NCBI GenBank assembly: GCA_028285525.1
Contig: JANQOZ010000103.1
Location: 1-64,000 of the forward strand
From: Lysobacterales bacterium
Lineage (GTDB): Bacteria > Pseudomonadota > Gammaproteobacteria > Xanthomonadales > SZUA-38
Direction: 5' to 3'
Length of the DNA: 64,000 bases
The notes under the pieces are model-generated. The model made no database searches. It was not told the origin of the DNA and was given only the letters and a program-made list of their open reading frames with translations. Numbering within the stretch: position 1 is the first letter of the stretch; each line of letters starts with the position of its first letter. Shown here in pieces: positions 17,490-24,230 of this stretch. The position numbers and the translations under genes are program-made.

Positions 17490-17510
17490 AAAAACCGCGG
17501 AAAATCGCGG
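17490..17510 (-). terminator. Intrinsic terminator after the PII-like gene
   Basis: On the minus strand CCGCG, a 6-nt loop and CGCGG are followed by TTTTT, about 50 nt after the stop codon of the PII-like gene. Closer to the stop lies another inverted repeat (GTGTCCTG / CAGGACAC, 17532-17573). Confidence 0.65.
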
Positions 17511-17561: not shown

Positions 17562-18737
17562 TCAGGACACGGGGCGGATGTAAGTGAAGGCGCGGGAGAC
17601 CGGCTGGCTGTAGACGCAGACGTTGGTCATCTCCAGCGATTCGACGCAGGCCTTCAGCGCTGCCTTGATTGGGTCGAGCTGCTGCTCTGAGACGATCGCG
17701 TGGATGATGCTGCGCTCCACGTTGATCCGCACCCCGTGGCTGTTGGGCTGGGCGTCGGCTTCGATAAATTTCGCCTGCGCGGCGTTGGCGCCGGGCGCGC
17801 CGGCCGCCAGCAGCGCGTCCATCACCGTTTCGGTATGTTTACGTGACGCGACGCAAGACAGAATCACCAGCCCATCCAGCGACTGGCGCTGCCGCAGCTT
17901 GCCGAACAGATTGAGCCCCGCTCCGCGAGCGGCGGCACCCTGCTGGACGCTCTGCTCGCGCCAGCCGGTGCCCCCCTTCAGGCCGTCGATAGCGGCGATC
18001 ATCTGCTGCATCGTCGCCGGCTGTCGGCGCCCGCCGAACGTGCTGGCGATACTCACCAGGCCCTTCTGCACCGGCATCCGGTAGAGAAAACCGCGTCCGG
18101 GGGTGTCGATCCGCCCGGCGGCCACCATGGCTTCCACGACCGCATCAGCGTCAGCGTTGTCCACCACCACAATCATCACTTCCTTGGTGGGCTTCTTGGT
18201 GATCTTCAGCCACCCGAGCCTGTCGCGAAGGCCGCGGCCCTCGCAGTAGTGAATGATCGGCCCATGGGTTCCCGCCTGGAGCGCCGCGCGCGAGATCACG
18301 TCGGTTTGCTCGGGCTGAACGATGCAGAAAATAGCCGTCAGGTTTTCCTTCAGCCCGTCGGAGGCGTCCGGCGCGTCGTCAAAGTCCTGGCCGCCGGACC
18401 AGAGGGCGAAATCCTCGGAATAGGCAAAGTCCATACAGGGCACCGAAAACACCGCGCCGGCGCCGGCCTGCTGCAGCCCACCGCTGGCGATGATCTCCTC
18501 GATGATGTGATCCACCTCGGGATCCGGAACAAAAAACTGCAGGAGCGTTTTTTCCGGGCTGATGGTCGGCAGGAACGACTGATACCAGGTGTCTTTAATA
18601 AGCGTGCCCCTGGCGCTGAGCAGCAGCACGTTGGGGTCGCCCTCGTTAAATACCCGCTCGATGACCGGGTCAGCGGACATGCGCGGCAGCAGGGCGGTCA
18701 CCACCGAGACCTTGTTGTTGGTGATGAGCCGGGTCAA
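17562..18737 (-). CDS. Protein with three tandem PII-like (GlnB-fold) domains
   Basis: A 391-residue protein. Three segments of about 110-130 residues look like repeated PII-type ferredoxin folds. The first begins VSVVTALLPRMSADPVIERV. The second begins LTAIFCIVQPEQTDVISRAA and closes with EVMIVVVDNADADAVVEAMV plus GRGFLYRMPVQKGL. The third begins LDGLVILSCVASRKHTETVM. The GRIDTPGRGFLYRMPV stretch resembles the C-loop strand of GlnB proteins. No Tyr T-loop of canonical GlnB/GlnK is evident. The start overlaps the upstream DUF1538 gene by 4 bp (ATGA). This mirrors amtB-glnK coupling, so I infer control of that membrane protein. Confidence 0.7.
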   Translation of the reverse strand: MTRLITNNKVSVVTALLPRMSADPVIERVFNEGDPNVLLLSARGTLIKDTWYQSFLPTISPEKTLLQFFVPDPEVDHIIEEIIASGGLQQAGAGAVFSVPCMDFAYSEDFALWSGGQDFDDAPDASDGLKENLTAIFCIVQPEQTDVISRAALQAGTHGPIIHYCEGRGLRDRLGWLKITKKPTKEVMIVVVDNADADAVVEAMVAAGRIDTPGRGFLYRMPVQKGLVSIASTFGGRRQPATMQQMIAAIDGLKGGTGWREQSVQQGAAARGAGLNLFGKLRQRQSLDGLVILSCVASRKHTETVMDALLAAGAPGANAAQAKFIEADAQPNSHGVRINVERSIIHAIVSEQQLDPIKAALKACVESLEMTNVCVYSQPVSRAFTYIRPVS

Positions 18738-20656
18738 GGTGTCTCCCTCACCGGCGCGCTGGTGCCCTCACGAGCCTGGCGCCCGGCAACCACACGTCCG
18801 ATCAGCAGCACGGTGATGATCGGACCGACCGACGCCAGCGCCAGAATGCCGAAGCCGTCGATAATGCCGGGCACATTGGCGCCGATCCCAAGCCCCATGG
18901 CCAGCACCAGCGGCACGGTGATCGGGCCGGTCGTCACCCCGGCGGAGTCCCAGCCAAAGTTGACGAATTCCTCGGATGAAACAAGAGTGAGAATCACCAG
19001 CCCCAGATAGGACGGGAGCAGCATCCAGGCCAGCGGGATGTTGTAGGCAATCTTGCAGACCCCCGCGGCGATACCGAGTCCAACCCCGAACGCCACCGAC
19101 TGCATCAGCAGCTTTTTCTTGAACGCGCCAACGGTGATTTTCTCAACCGTGTTGCCCAGCGCGTTGAGAGCCGGCTCCGCCAGGGTTGCCCCATAGCCCA
19201 GGAAAAAGCCGAACAGCGCCGCGAGCGCCTTGCCGGCGTTGTCTGACTCAAAAAGCGGCCCCTCAATGCCCTCCATACCCCAGGGCGTGATGGCCGCAAA
19301 CGTCCCCGGGACGTTGCTGCCGAGCTGCGAACCCAGCGGCGTCAGGCCAAGCGAGATACCCAGGACAAACAGGCACATGCCCAGGACCGCAAAGGTGATG
19401 CCGATTGTGATCTCGTCGAGTCGCTGGACCTTTTCCCGCAGCACCAGGCGCAGCGTCAGGAACAGAAACAGGCAAAGCGGAATGATCGCCCGCAGGGCTT
19501 CGAGCATCGCGTCAGCCAGCCCCTGCAGGATGCTCTTGCTGCCGTCCCACTGCGTATCGCTGATCATCGCCGGGCGCTCCACGAGAGGCCTGGAGAGCAC
19601 AACGGTCGGGTTGGTGAGCACTATTTCGCCGTCACGAAGCTCGGGCTGCCCACCCTCAAAGCGGATGTTGAGCTCACCGAGCGCGTCGGGGTTTTCGACG
19701 AAGCGCGCAAACTCCTCTTCGGTAATCATCGATCGGCCGTCGGCGCTCTCATCCCCTGCCGCCGCTGCCGGCGCATTGATCGCCGCCGACCCCGTGTAGT
19801 TCTCCGCGCCCCAGTAGTCTTTGGCCTGGTAGTGGTACATCCCCAGCAGCAGCACCGCGAGAATCGGAAACAGCGACGCCAGCGTGACGATGCCGAAGCC
19901 GGCGTTACTCGATTCACCGCTACCCACGATGCGGCAGACCCCGACGCCCAGCGCCAGCACCAGCGGTACCGTCACCGGCCCGGTGGTCACCGCCCCGCAG
20001 TCCCAGGCCAGCGCCAGAATCGGCTGGGTCACCGGATCCAGGTTTAAAACGAAGGTCAGCCCGCAGAGGATCAAAACGCCCGGGATGATCAGCAGCTTCA
20101 GCGACCAGCCGTAGAAAAAGCGCAGTACCCCAAGCAGCACGGCGGCGCCCACGCCCAGCCCCACCGACAGTACGAGCTGGCCCGAAAAGTCGTTGAGCAG
20201 GCTGAACAGGAGCGGCGCCTGATCGGGCGCGACCCCGGAGCCGGCCGCTTTCAGGACGGAGATGGCGGGTTCCGCAAACGTCGCGCCAAGACCGAGCACA
20301 AAGGCAAAACCCAGAATCACCGGCAGCGGTGAGTTGCGTGGCAGAACCGCACCGATGGTTTCGCCCAGCGGCATGAGGCCCAGGCGCAGCCCCTCCATAA
20401 AAAACATCAGGCCTACCGCCACAATGACAATGCCAACGCCGATCATGCTGGCGTAGACGATCGGCAGCCCCAGCACCAGGATCTGGAAAACGACGAGGTA
20501 AACCACGATGAACCAGACGCTGCGCACCTGTTCCATGAAGTTCTCGGCGAAATAGGGGTAGAGGATCCGCAGCGAGTCGGACCACCCCAGACGGGTGGTG
20601 CCGGACGCGTTACCGTCGGGTGGGTTTACCCCTGCGGGCTGCATTTGTGAAGCCAT
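18734..20656 (-). CDS. DUF1538 family membrane protein with internal duplication
   Basis: A 640-residue protein from the ATG at 20656 (start uncertain; no ideal SD). It has many hydrophobic helices in two homologous halves. Half 1 has LGLMPLGETIGAVLPR, GLGATFAEPAISVLKAAGS and AWDCGAVTTGPVTVPLVLAL. Half 2 has LGLTPLGSQLGSNVPG, GYGATLAEPALNALGNTV and GWDSAGVTTGPITVPLVLAM. The repeated GATxAEP and TTGPxTVPLVLA motifs look like inverted or tandem pore loops of a transporter. The substrate is unknown. A PII-like gene overlaps its stop. Confidence 0.82.
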   Translation of the reverse strand: MASQMQPAGVNPPDGNASGTTRLGWSDSLRILYPYFAENFMEQVRSVWFIVVYLVVFQILVLGLPIVYASMIGVGIVIVAVGLMFFMEGLRLGLMPLGETIGAVLPRNSPLPVILGFAFVLGLGATFAEPAISVLKAAGSGVAPDQAPLLFSLLNDFSGQLVLSVGLGVGAAVLLGVLRFFYGWSLKLLIIPGVLILCGLTFVLNLDPVTQPILALAWDCGAVTTGPVTVPLVLALGVGVCRIVGSGESSNAGFGIVTLASLFPILAVLLLGMYHYQAKDYWGAENYTGSAAINAPAAAAGDESADGRSMITEEEFARFVENPDALGELNIRFEGGQPELRDGEIVLTNPTVVLSRPLVERPAMISDTQWDGSKSILQGLADAMLEALRAIIPLCLFLFLTLRLVLREKVQRLDEITIGITFAVLGMCLFVLGISLGLTPLGSQLGSNVPGTFAAITPWGMEGIEGPLFESDNAGKALAALFGFFLGYGATLAEPALNALGNTVEKITVGAFKKKLLMQSVAFGVGLGIAAGVCKIAYNIPLAWMLLPSYLGLVILTLVSSEEFVNFGWDSAGVTTGPITVPLVLAMGLGIGANVPGIIDGFGILALASVGPIITVLLIGRVVAGRQAREGTSAPVRETP

Positions 20657-20927
20657 CCTGGCAGTCTTCCCCCTGCGTTGACCGAGCGGCTGCGCCGAAG
20701 CGCCAAAAAACCTCGACTTCGGACATAACGTTCTGCTGGCCTTGGTTATGCCATAATCCGCCGGCACGAGCAAAGCGCGGTTGCGCTAACCCCGCGGCCA
20801 GCAAGCAAATTTGAGCCATCGCTGCCTGGTCGGCCGTGCGATTATCCTGTCCGGTTAGCGAGCGTGTCAGGCGGCAGGCCAAGGCATTCGACAGCACCCA
20901 TTTCCCAACGCGTCAGAAGGAGAAAAC

Positions 20928-21698
20928 ATGCTTCGCTTTGCAACGGCACTGCTGACAGGTTTGCTCGGCACGGGCTGCGCGGTAGCCCCGTCTGACCCCC
21001 GGACGCCGTCAACGCCCGACGGTCTTGCTCTGGTTATCGACAATCCGATCGCAGAACCTGAGCCCATCGATCCGGCGCTGCTGTCGGCCGCAGCCTGCGA
21101 AGCGCTGCTGGAGCAGCTGCAGCAGTCAGAGCAGCTGATGGGCCGCCTGAACAGCCAGCTCGATGGTCACGCCGCGCGGGTGGAAGCAACGGTGAAGTCA
21201 TTGAAGCCAGCGCCTGCTCCTGCACCACAGGACTGCCCCGAGCCCGCCGCCGCGCTGCCCGAAGGCAAACAGCTCATCGGGGGGCTGGAATGGATTTACA
21301 TGGAGCCACCCGGACGCCATTACCGAGCCCGTGTCGACAGCGGTGCGGACACTTCATCGATCAGCGCCAGCGACATCACCGAATTTGAGCGCGATGGCGA
21401 CGATTGGGTGCGATTTACTTTTCAGCACGACAGCCCCGAAGAGGCAGTGGAATTTGAGCTGCCCGTGGTGCGCACCGCAATGATTCGGCAGGCCTCGGTA
21501 AAAGAGGCCGAGCGGCGCGTGGTGGTTGAGATCGACATTCGTCTCGGCGATCAGCTGCAAACCACCGAATTCAACCTGGCCGACCGGAGCGAGATGACCT
21601 ACCCCGTGCTGCTGGGCCGGGCGTTTCTGATGGATCTCTACCTGGTCGACGTGTCCCGGTCCTACACGCAGCAGCGCTATCGGCCGGCGCGCCCCTGA
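20928..21698 (+). CDS. Retropepsin-like 'ATP-dependent zinc protease' family protein
   Basis: A 256-residue protein with a strong SD (AAGGAG, 5 nt). The N-terminal hydrophobic stretch ends in GTGCAV, a possible but non-ideal lipobox. Residues about 35-95 form a short helical/coiled region. The protease-like domain starts at LIGGLEWIYMEPPGRHYRAR and has the aspartyl-protease-type motif VDSGADTSSISA. It ends TYPVLLGRAFLMDLYLVDVS. Despite the family name, the fold resembles single-Asp retropepsins. It is gene 1 of a three-gene set with the transglutaminase-7TM and RimK-like genes, separated by 2-4 bp. Confidence 0.82.
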   Translation: MLRFATALLTGLLGTGCAVAPSDPRTPSTPDGLALVIDNPIAEPEPIDPALLSAAACEALLEQLQQSEQLMGRLNSQLDGHAARVEATVKSLKPAPAPAPQDCPEPAAALPEGKQLIGGLEWIYMEPPGRHYRARVDSGADTSSISASDITEFERDGDDWVRFTFQHDSPEEAVEFELPVVRTAMIRQASVKEAERRVVVEIDIRLGDQLQTTEFNLADRSEMTYPVLLGRAFLMDLYLVDVSRSYTQQRYRPARP

Positions 21699-21700
21699 TC

Positions 21701-23254
21701 ATGCGTGTCGCTTCTCGAACCCGTCGTCGCATCTCGCTGATCGGTATCGTCGGCGCGCTCGTCATCGTGGGCGTCAGCATGTCGGTGCACCGTCACTACA
21801 CCGCTGACGTCCCGTGGTTGCCGGGAGAAGAAAAACTCATCTGGTCGATCGAAGCGAGCGTCGAGTTTGTCGGCAACGGCAGACCGGCGAAGGTCACCCT
21901 GCGTCGCCCGACCGACCAGCAGGGCTTCTCCGTCCTCAGTGAAAGCGGCGCATCGCCGGGCTACGGGCTCGCGTTCCTCGACGACGGTGATCTGCCGGCA
22001 GCGCAATGGACCACCCGCGAAGCGCGCGGGCTGCAGCGGCTCTACTATCGGGCAGAGGTGCTGCAGCGCAGCGCAGGGGGCATCGAAGACAACGTCCCGG
22101 CGCCGGCGCTGCGCTCACCGTCCTGGGAAGAGCCTTTTTCGACAGCCGTCAACGCCATTCTCGACAAGGCCTACCAGCAGTCTTCCGATCCGTTCACGAT
22201 GGCCCGGCAGCTGACCGCCCTGTTTCAGGCTCGCGAGCCGGCGCAGGACGTGCAGCTGCTGATCAACGGTGTCGGCAGTGAAAACCTGACTGCCCTGCTG
22301 GCGGATATGCTGCAGAGCCGTGACATCCCCGCCGCAACCGTCTACGGACTGCTGCTGGAGGACGGTCGGCGTCGCCAGCGCCTGCGTCCGCTGCTGAGAG
22401 TCTGGTCGGGAGATGAGAGCCAGGTTTTCAGGCTCGATCAGGAGCCCGCGGAGTCACGTCGTCCGCTACTGCTGTGGCAACCCACTCGCGGCTATACGCT
22501 AGAGGTCGAAGGCGGCAGCAGTTCAGAGCTGTTTTTCTCCATGATCCGGTCAGAGCAAACAGACTATGGGCAGGTGGCTCGCGCTCTGGGTACCGCGAAC
22601 GGTTGGCTGGGCTTTTCGATTCACGATCTGCCGATCGAAGAACAGGCCATGTTCAAAACGATCCTGCTGCTGCCCGTCGGCGCTCTGGTTGTCTGCCTGC
22701 TGAGAATACTCGTCGGGCTGCGGACCTCCGGCACGTTTATGCCGGTGCTGATTGCGCTGGCTTTTATAGAAACCAGCCTGCTGACGGGGCTCATCGGATT
22801 CCTGCTGGTGGTGTCGGTGGGTCTGATGATCCGGTCCTACATGTCTCATCTGAACCTGCTGCTGGTGGCCCGAATATCAGCGGTCATCATTACAGTCATC
22901 GCCATCATCGCGCTGTTCAGCGTGTTTAGCTACGAGGTCGGGCTGACCGAGGGTCTGAAGATCACCTTCTTTCCGATGATCATCCTCTCCTGGACCGTCG
23001 AACGGATGTCCATCCTCTGGGAAGAGGAAGGCTGGAAGGAGGTGGCGATTCAGGGTTCCGGCAGCCTCCTGACGGCCGTTGCGGCTTATCTGGCCATGAC
23101 CAACCCCTGGATCCGGCATCTGAGCTTCAATTTTATCGGCCTCCAGCTGGTGGTGCTGGCGCTGATTATTCTGCTGGGCAACTACAGCGGCTATCGGCTG
23201 CTGGAGCTGCGTCGCTTCCGCGCAATGGTGGGCCCAAAGCCCGACGCGAGCTGA
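21701..23254 (+). CDS. Inactive transglutaminase-like domain fused to seven transmembrane helices
   Basis: A 517-residue protein. A signal-anchor lies at about 10-28 (ISLIGIVGALVIVGVSMSV). The periplasmic part (about 30-320) contains a transglutaminase-like segment where the expected catalytic Cys is replaced (VQLLINGVGSENLTALLADM). Seven hydrophobic helices follow (about 325-505), among them TILLLPVGALVVCLLRILV and TSGTFMPVLIALAF. The Arg-Thr-Ser/Phe-Gly-Thr-Phe motif before helix 2 is typical of this family. It starts 2 bp after the protease gene and ends 4 bp before the ligase gene, so the three are an operon. Confidence 0.85.
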   Translation: MRVASRTRRRISLIGIVGALVIVGVSMSVHRHYTADVPWLPGEEKLIWSIEASVEFVGNGRPAKVTLRRPTDQQGFSVLSESGASPGYGLAFLDDGDLPAAQWTTREARGLQRLYYRAEVLQRSAGGIEDNVPAPALRSPSWEEPFSTAVNAILDKAYQQSSDPFTMARQLTALFQAREPAQDVQLLINGVGSENLTALLADMLQSRDIPAATVYGLLLEDGRRRQRLRPLLRVWSGDESQVFRLDQEPAESRRPLLLWQPTRGYTLEVEGGSSSELFFSMIRSEQTDYGQVARALGTANGWLGFSIHDLPIEEQAMFKTILLLPVGALVVCLLRILVGLRTSGTFMPVLIALAFIETSLLTGLIGFLLVVSVGLMIRSYMSHLNLLLVARISAVIITVIAIIALFSVFSYEVGLTEGLKITFFPMIILSWTVERMSILWEEEGWKEVAIQGSGSLLTAVAAYLAMTNPWIRHLSFNFIGLQLVVLALIILLGNYSGYRLLELRRFRAMVGPKPDAS

Positions 23255-23258
23255 AGTG

Positions 23259-24230
23259 ATGGCGCTTCTCAGTCGGTTTTTCGCAAGTCCTGGGAGCCTT
23301 CGTGAGCTTGGCATCGTCGGCATGAACGGACGCAACATCGACCTGATCGCCAGGCTCAATCCGCGCCGGCTTTATCCATTGGTGGACAACAAGCTGAAGA
23401 CCAAACAGCTCGCCGAGCAGCACGGGATCCCCGTTCCCGGCCTGATTCATGCGGTCGACACACAGCGCGACATTCGGGAACTGCCCAGGCTGCTGGCCCG
23501 GCGCAGCGGTTTTGCCGTGAAGCCGGCCAAGGGCAGCGGCGGCAAGGGCATTTTGGTCATCACCGGCCGCAGACCCGGCGAATTTATCAAGAGCAGCGGC
23601 ATGAGCCTGCGCCTGCGGGACATATCGCACCACGTCAGCAACATCCTGTCGGGCCTCTTCAGCCTTGGCGGCAGCCCGGACACCGCGGTGATCGAAGAGC
23701 TGATCGAGCCCGACCCGCTCTACGACGACCTGTCGGTTGAGGGTGTACCTGACATTCGGATTATCGTTTACCGCGGTATTCCCATCATGGCCATGATGCG
23801 GCTTTCCACCCGCGCCTCTGACGGCAAAGCCAATCTCCACCAGGGTGCGGTCGGGGTCGGTCTATGCATTCAGACCGGGCGATCGGTGAACGCGGTTCAG
23901 TTCAGCGACCTGGTCACGTCTCACCCGGACTCAGGGGCGGATCTGCGATCGATCGAGATTCCCAACTGGCCCGACATGCTGGAGCTTTCGGCCCGCTGCG
24001 CAGACGCGACCGGCCTCGGCTACCTCGGATGCGATGTGGTGCTGGACGTCAATCGTGGGCCGCTACTGCTGGAGCTGAATGCTCGCCCCGGGCTGGCGAT
24101 CCAGATCTCCAACGGCAGCGGTTTGGCGCCGAGGGTCGCAGCGGTGGACGCCCTGCCCTCGTCCGCGCTCCTGGAAGCGCCGGCTGACCGTGCCCACCGA
24201 GCGCAGTCGATGTTTGCGGCGTCGGCCTGA
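23259..24230 (+). CDS. Alpha-L-glutamate ligase-like protein (RimK-type ATP-grasp)
   Basis: About 323 residues from ATG 23259 (an in-frame GTG directly precedes it). ATP-grasp motifs are visible: the lysine strand GFAVKPAKGSGGKGILVI, the hinge VIEELIEPD, DIRIIVYRGIPIMAMMRLST, and the metal-binding end GYLGCDVVLDVNRGPLLLEL followed by NARPGLAIQ. RimK-type enzymes join amino acids to a carboxylate, often glutamates to proteins or small acceptors. The acceptor here is unknown. It is third gene of the protease / inactive transglutaminase-7TM / ligase set; the convergent Ada-like gene follows 2 bp after its stop. Confidence 0.87.
   Translation: MALLSRFFASPGSLRELGIVGMNGRNIDLIARLNPRRLYPLVDNKLKTKQLAEQHGIPVPGLIHAVDTQRDIRELPRLLARRSGFAVKPAKGSGGKGILVITGRRPGEFIKSSGMSLRLRDISHHVSNILSGLFSLGGSPDTAVIEELIEPDPLYDDLSVEGVPDIRIIVYRGIPIMAMMRLSTRASDGKANLHQGAVGVGLCIQTGRSVNAVQFSDLVTSHPDSGADLRSIEIPNWPDMLELSARCADATGLGYLGCDVVLDVNRGPLLLELNARPGLAIQISNGSGLAPRVAAVDALPSSALLEAPADRAHRAQSMFAASA

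Follow-up and report, generated by a model that had tools for sequence, protein, structure and literature searches.

A single chain of 391 residues that carries three PII folds is encoded in a 64,000-nucleotide stretch of DNA from a Lysobacterales bacterium (GCA_028285525.1, contig JANQOZ010000103.1, positions 1 to 64,000; hereafter the window), and its gene overlaps that of a membrane protein with two DUF1538 repeats. The textbook picture of PII, one of the most widespread kinds of signalling protein, is a symmetric homotrimer for nitrogen and carbon control. In the present case, a PII accompanies a Na+(K+)/H+ antiporter family in many phyla, and one clade has it as a single asymmetric chain. 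The pairing of DUF1538 with PII is near-obligate across many phyla, and the PII copy number follows the transporter architecture. The DUF1538 protein and the triple-PII protein probably form a transporter-regulator unit, for which we propose docking and gating. The gene pair is a good candidate for built-in transporter control.

The three PII domains are all encoded on the minus strand: D1 (residues 5-107, positions 18417-18725), with a variable T-loop and conserved R43, G92 and G94; D2 (residues 130-229, 18051-18350), the most conserved, whose profile is nearest to the type-2 PII-alpha described below; and D3 (residues 286-391, 17565-17882), the most diverged. Pfam recognised one P-II domain, the middle one (135-224, E 5.3e-10). 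A profile of 78 single-domain PII sequences, from which the window protein and its two close relatives were excluded, matched the chain three times, at 11-103 (independent E-value 0.011), 135-225 (7e-12) and 293-367 (2e-4), the search space being the open reading frames (ORFs) of the loci searched. Comparison of the domain alignments with hhalign gave 99.1% for D1-D2, 98.7% for D2-D3 and 97.4% for D1-D3, and 98.3-99.0% for the three domains against single PIIs; reversed or column-shuffled controls gave at most 13.8%.

The AlphaFold2 model of the triple PII was built from 76 sequences (predicted local distance difference test, pLDDT, 85.8; predicted template modelling score, pTM, 0.83), and superseded a run from the three closest sequences alone (pLDDT 43). 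The secondary structure order of the PII fold, beta-alpha-beta-beta-alpha-beta with the T-loop between strands 2 and 3, occurs three times in the chain. In a Foldseek search with this model, whole single domains were matched by GlnK/PII chains, with TM-scores mostly of 0.6-0.75 (by target length). The aspartate kinase matches that ranked first in Foldseek were rejected (TM-score about 0.20, root-mean-square deviation (rmsd) near 19). Profile comparison, AlphaFold2 and Foldseek agree on three PII folds in one chain, as the original prediction, made from the sequence alone, had supposed. The canonical GlnB/GlnK proteins are homotrimers of single-domain subunits; here the three domains stand in one 391-residue chain. 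The pTM of 0.83 indicates only that D1, D2 and D3 share one confident packing; a built-in pseudo-trimer is likely, and its pseudo-threefold axis is putative.

The triple-PII gene (17562-18737, minus strand; D1-D2-linker-D3) starts with TTG. The DUF1538 gene (18734-20656, minus strand; 640 residues, fused UmpA-UmpB-like) starts with ATG; were the in-frame TTG further upstream, at 20773, the start, the protein would have 679 residues. The two genes share the bases TTGA (18734-18737, minus strand), which combine the stop codon TGA of the DUF1538 gene with the start codon TTG of the PII gene; both genes lie where the original prediction placed them, and the geometry of the overlap suits translational coupling. 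The family DUF1538 (PF07556) was found in the 640-residue protein with an E-value of 5.3e-112 (372.7 bits against a gathering score of 22.6) in two stretches, the UmpA-like repeat 1 (19838-20509, minus strand) and the UmpB-like repeat 2 (18797-19471, minus strand), which confirms the twofold repeat proposed earlier. Each half contains the AEP and TTGPxTVPLVLA motifs. Between the repeats is an acidic loop of about 114 residues (271-384; 19505-19846, minus strand), predicted to be periplasmic by its charge. The contents of K/R versus D/E, averaged over nine homologues, are 7.3 vs 4.2 at the N-terminus, 3.6 vs 1.7 at the C-terminus and 3.1 vs 8.4 in the middle loop. These charges fit a predicted topology with both termini inside and the acidic loop outside, which suits two inverted halves. 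A solved structural relative of the DUF1538 protein was searched for, and none was found.

The original prediction described DUF1538 as uncharacterised, which is out of date. In Halomonas zhaodongensis, UmpA and UmpB, which are split DUF1538 proteins, jointly form a Na+(Li+,K+)/H+ antiporter; they were cloned on a 4.2-kb fragment with four ORFs, of which the third and fourth are the DUF1538 pair (PMC5484666). A growth-pH model of 2026 tabulated DUF1538 among ion transporter families (PMC13255231). Judged by its family, the window's protein probably carries a monovalent cation rather than ammonium.

The pairing was surveyed in 60 DUF1538 loci collected without regard to PII, namely 59 from one profile listing (58 genomes, G317 twice) and the locus L108; they were drawn from the best-scoring matches and are biased toward the split type. 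At 56 of the 60, a PII gene lies downstream in the same orientation, no more than 240 bases away from where the DUF1538 domain ends. Fused loci were collected, likewise blind to PII, by scanning named species genomes with the transporter alignment, and the best 80 of 529 relatives were taken. A triple-PII ORF of at least 350 residues follows the fused DUF1538 at 74 of these best 80. As for the rest, L176 and L183 enter a triple PII at the contig end, L210 is of type 2, and L157, L193 and L194 stop short; PII is present at 77 of the 77 fused loci with readable downstream sequence. The co-occurrence of the two families, by which the original prediction was to be judged, holds in both surveys.

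The 74 triple-PII loci span 15 named phyla, with eight loci unassigned; most of the carriers are metagenome-assembled genomes, and individual phylum labels may be wrong. Named strains with the fused locus include Sinimarinibacterium flocculans DSM 104150, Sinimarinibacterium sp. CAU 1509, Cerasicoccus arenae KCTC 12870 and Cerasicoccus maritimus NBRC 105382. When the gene spacing was measured from the first possible start codon at 72 triple loci, the PII and transporter genes shared 1 or 4 bases at 30 of them, and the spacing was within -60 to +20 at 64. A class-wide search with the 76-row profile revealed a full-length triple PII in 6 of 369 genomes and a type-2-like single domain in 13 of 369, one genome having both forms. 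The triple form was found in three of four family genomes and, with a three-sequence profile, in full length in 1 of 398 genomes of a phylum sample. Confinement of the triple form to the window's family was rejected, being overturned by the 80-locus scan and the class-wide search (6/369). A scan of genome contigs with a single triple-PII sequence confirmed no relative, and it was the transporter alignment that recovered the 80 loci. On another contig, the source genome also has umpA, umpB and PII as an ordinary set (L026).

Three architectures of the DUF1538-PII loci were distinguished. In architecture 1, found at 66 of the 170 loci classified, split umpA and umpB are accompanied by one PII gene; two more among the 170 are split loci with tandem PIIs, and a fused DUF1538 of about 500 residues with one PII also exists. 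Architecture 2 (type 2, 29 loci) consists of a fused DUF1538 of about 570-650 residues, then PII-alpha, then a weaker PII-beta; these loci were mostly recovered via PII-alpha, not via PII-beta. Architecture 3, that of the window, has a fused DUF1538 of about 620-730 residues and one triple-PII gene. A quick tree was reconstructed from 102 of 189 DUF1538 rows, thinned to every third split-single row and about every second triple row, with cut or near-duplicate loci omitted. The triple-PII loci form one side of a branch with a support of 76, which is not firm; the tandem loci group at a support of 97, together with the cut locus L122, whose label 'single' is a contig-end effect. The architecture class changes 9 times on the tree, compared with 52.9 times in shuffles. 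The deep placement is unsure, given the long branches of L110, L111 and L128 and that between the split and fused clades.

The hhalign comparison showed D2 to be by far closest to type-2 PII-alpha (99.9%), and D3 and D1 are likewise more similar to PII-alpha or D2 than to PII-beta. It is likely from these profiles that the PII part grew around the alpha domain rather than by a simple fusion of alpha and beta. Tentatively, and with a little less than even confidence, we suggest that PII copy number and covalent fusion evolved in step with transporter symmetry: split with one PII, fused with two, and fused with a triple PII of which only the middle domain still docks. Some further loci were noticed. 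For example, split umpA-umpB genes with two tandem PII genes (L032:5500-6149 and L034:683-1359) are a second, separate case of PII duplication beside DUF1538. In L089, two DUF1538 systems stand back to back: first a fused DUF1538 of about 495 residues with its PII, then a further PII with split umpA and umpB. The family f53 (L110, L111, L113, L115, L128 and L129) has a very fast-evolving fused DUF1538 with a conserved adjoining PII-alpha. A lone PII (L137:4271-4588) matches D3 by profile, and no DUF1538 match was found within the 9 kb fetched around it.

The three domains of the triple PII are unevenly conserved. The commonest residue has a mean share of 0.57 in D2, 0.40 in D1 and 0.37 in D3. 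The T-loop of D2 (residues 169-183; 18189-18233, minus strand), with a conserved GxGxRD base, has 15 residues in all 76 aligned triple PIIs, whereas the loops of D1 and D3 vary in length; D2 also retains a strongly conserved PGxGF B-loop. The linker between D2 and D3 (residues 230-285; 17883-18050, minus strand) contains a conserved A...Q...D...G...WR motif, of which W259 and R260 are invariant across the alignment. This uneven conservation suggests that the pseudo-trimer is asymmetric and has one working site for contact and sensing, an arrangement that would fit a transporter lacking threefold symmetry. As for the ligand, cyclic di-AMP is unlikely in this organism, because no diadenylate cyclase (DAC) domain was found in the source genome (98.25% complete), a search that was positive in 11 of 14 control genomes.

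The explanation that we favour, at somewhat better than even confidence, is that the single-chain PII is an asymmetric pseudo-trimer which, via one T-loop, docks on the fused antiporter from the cytoplasmic side and gates it on a signal. The 640-residue protein would be a single-chain UmpAB, with two DUF1538 halves, probably antiparallel, that swap a monovalent cation for protons. The 391-residue protein would be a cytoplasmic regulator dedicated to it, a PII trimer whose three subunits have been joined in one chain and are now unequal. D2, which keeps the conserved T-loop and B-loop, might be the sensing and contacting domain; whereas D1 and D3 might complete the trimer and the inter-domain clefts. 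A ligand in the D2 cleft would set the T-loop, which would then enter or leave the cytoplasmic opening of the antiporter and thereby close or open it. Gating by T-loop insertion is proposed by analogy with AmtB-GlnK and SbtA-SbtB. For the fused clade, the cation/proton exchange, the geometry of the pseudo-trimer, the docking, the gating with its sign and the ligand are all inferred.

Several observations weigh against this explanation. In VIA-align, AcrB-type pump domains (Z 7-8, rmsd 4-6) scored slightly above PII (Z 6.7-7.2), Z values of a middling size that common arrangements also reach. Kinship with the AcrB-type porters was rejected because PII chains match whole single domains and sequence profiles find PII; the AcrB match is spread over two units. 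Four of the 60 loci collected blind to PII (L085, L096, L097 and L102) have no adjoining PII. The B-loop lysine of canonical GlnB/GlnK (GDGK in the aligned PII) is missing by sequence, the motif being GAGA in D1 and PGRGF in D2; canonical ATP binding is therefore doubtful, and the ligand may bind otherwise than ATP does in GlnK. The split and fused clades are separated by a branch of 4.2 changes per column, and the scores with the NCBIfam models of UmpA and UmpB (NF041627 and NF041628) are 224.9 bits against a cut-off of 490 and 180.2 against 500. Since this branch is very long and the cut-offs are missed, the transported ion may differ from that of UmpAB. Moreover, UmpAB conferred salt tolerance in Escherichia coli without any listed PII gene on the plasmid (PMC5484666), which indicates that PII is dispensable for transport; this fits a modulator, and also a bystander.

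The fused DUF1538 might carry another substrate, such as bicarbonate, an anion or a compatible solute, with the PII reporting the carbon/nitrogen state as SbtB and GlnK do. The great distance of the fused from the split clade and the unmet NCBIfam cut-offs are in line with this, as are the known PII-transporter pairs, which handle ammonium (AmtB-GlnK, 2ns1) and bicarbonate (SbtA-SbtB, PMC8352866). However, the Pfam family is the same (E 5.3e-112), the AEP and TTGPxTVPLVLA motifs are found in both halves, and DUF1538 has been tabulated with ion transporter families (PMC13255231); we consider another substrate somewhat unlikely. It is unlikely, too, that the triple PII serves the transporter permanently as a structural subunit or an assembly factor, its PII folds having lost sensing. 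The degeneracy of D1 and D3, the missing lysine and the near-obligate pairing would agree with such a role; whereas a mere scaffold would not need the conserved T-loop and PGxGF B-loop of D2, and the split UmpAB functions in E. coli without a listed PII gene on the plasmid (PMC5484666). That the PII acts elsewhere, in transcription or metabolism, and that the gene pair is merely co-regulated, seems very improbable. Classical PIIs are generally known to have many soluble targets, and the source genome also has two strong classical PIIs; however, the adjacency is near-obligate in three architectures and many phyla, and the PII copy number tracks the transporter clade. These two features together indicate a direct partner.

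The single-chain PII regulator of a fused antiporter shares some features with known systems. NifI1-NifI2 is a tandem PII pair in some nitrogenase clusters, with nitrogenase as its target; the type-2 fused DUF1538 operons resemble it in having two different PIIs in tandem, and to our knowledge it includes no three-domain chain. The PDB entry 9p1x contains 12 copies of one PII chain and 6 of another; that it is a NifI complex is a guess. As in AmtB-GlnK, the PII of the window is encoded together with a membrane transporter. In AmtB-GlnK, a PII homotrimer of single-domain subunits sits on the trimeric ammonium channel; in the window, the three PIIs are unequal and form one chain, and the partner is from a family of cation antiporters. 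The proposed analogy to AmtB-GlnK is therefore sound in its logic and fails for the cargo, as the partner belongs to the Na+(Li+,K+)/H+ antiporter family. SbtB has one domain per chain, and SbtA belongs to a different transporter family from DUF1538. The likeness to SbtA-SbtB is that there, too, a membrane transporter has a PII-like regulator of its own (PMC8352866). UmpAB has the same Pfam family in both halves, and two homologous halves cooperate in it as a hetero-dimer (PMC5484666); whereas the window's halves are fused in one chain with the long middle loop, and the NCBIfam cut-offs are missed.

No description of the DUF1538-PII pairing was found in the open-access literature searched, most subscription papers and bioRxiv preprints being outside the search. 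PII proteins are unmentioned in the open-access papers that this search found to name DUF1538, where the sole 'PII' match (PMC7221264) is a stretch of a peptide motif. A joint search for PII with UmpA, UmpB or DUF1538 gave no paper that joins them among the matches listed, the one co-count being a dengue paper. The searched text of the 2017 UmpAB paper (PMC5484666) and passages of a cable bacterium paper naming UmpAB (PMC12093952) also contain no mention of PII. If the evolution in step with transporter symmetry that we suggest is true, triple PIIs would make up a widespread class of plugs that are asymmetric and pair one-to-one with a cation/proton antiporter, a type of regulator so far undescribed. 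In many phyla, the balance of ions and pH would then be coupled directly to a metabolic or nucleotide signal. The control of UmpAB-type antiporters would become testable, as would the question of why a trimeric sensor gives up its symmetry. Unlike homotrimers, the covalently joined trimer permits mutation site by site.

Other features were found near the pair and in the source genome. A terminator-like hairpin with a T run lies past the PII gene (17495-17510, minus strand), and the scan's rate for such sites equals chance. The divergent neighbour cluster (20928-24230, plus strand) encodes an RloA-like retropepsin, an RloB-like inactive transglutaminase with seven transmembrane segments, and an ATP-grasp protein. 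A conserved link of the pair to these genes was rejected, as outside the window they adjoin it only in a genome of the same genus (L027). The RloB-like protein matches an NCBIfam 'osmotic stress tolerance' family with a score below the cut-off. Besides its two strong classical PIIs, the source genome contains a third PII-like match in a 253-residue frame (L225, G000:C98:124104-124385, plus strand; E 5.8e-15), weaker than the classical two.

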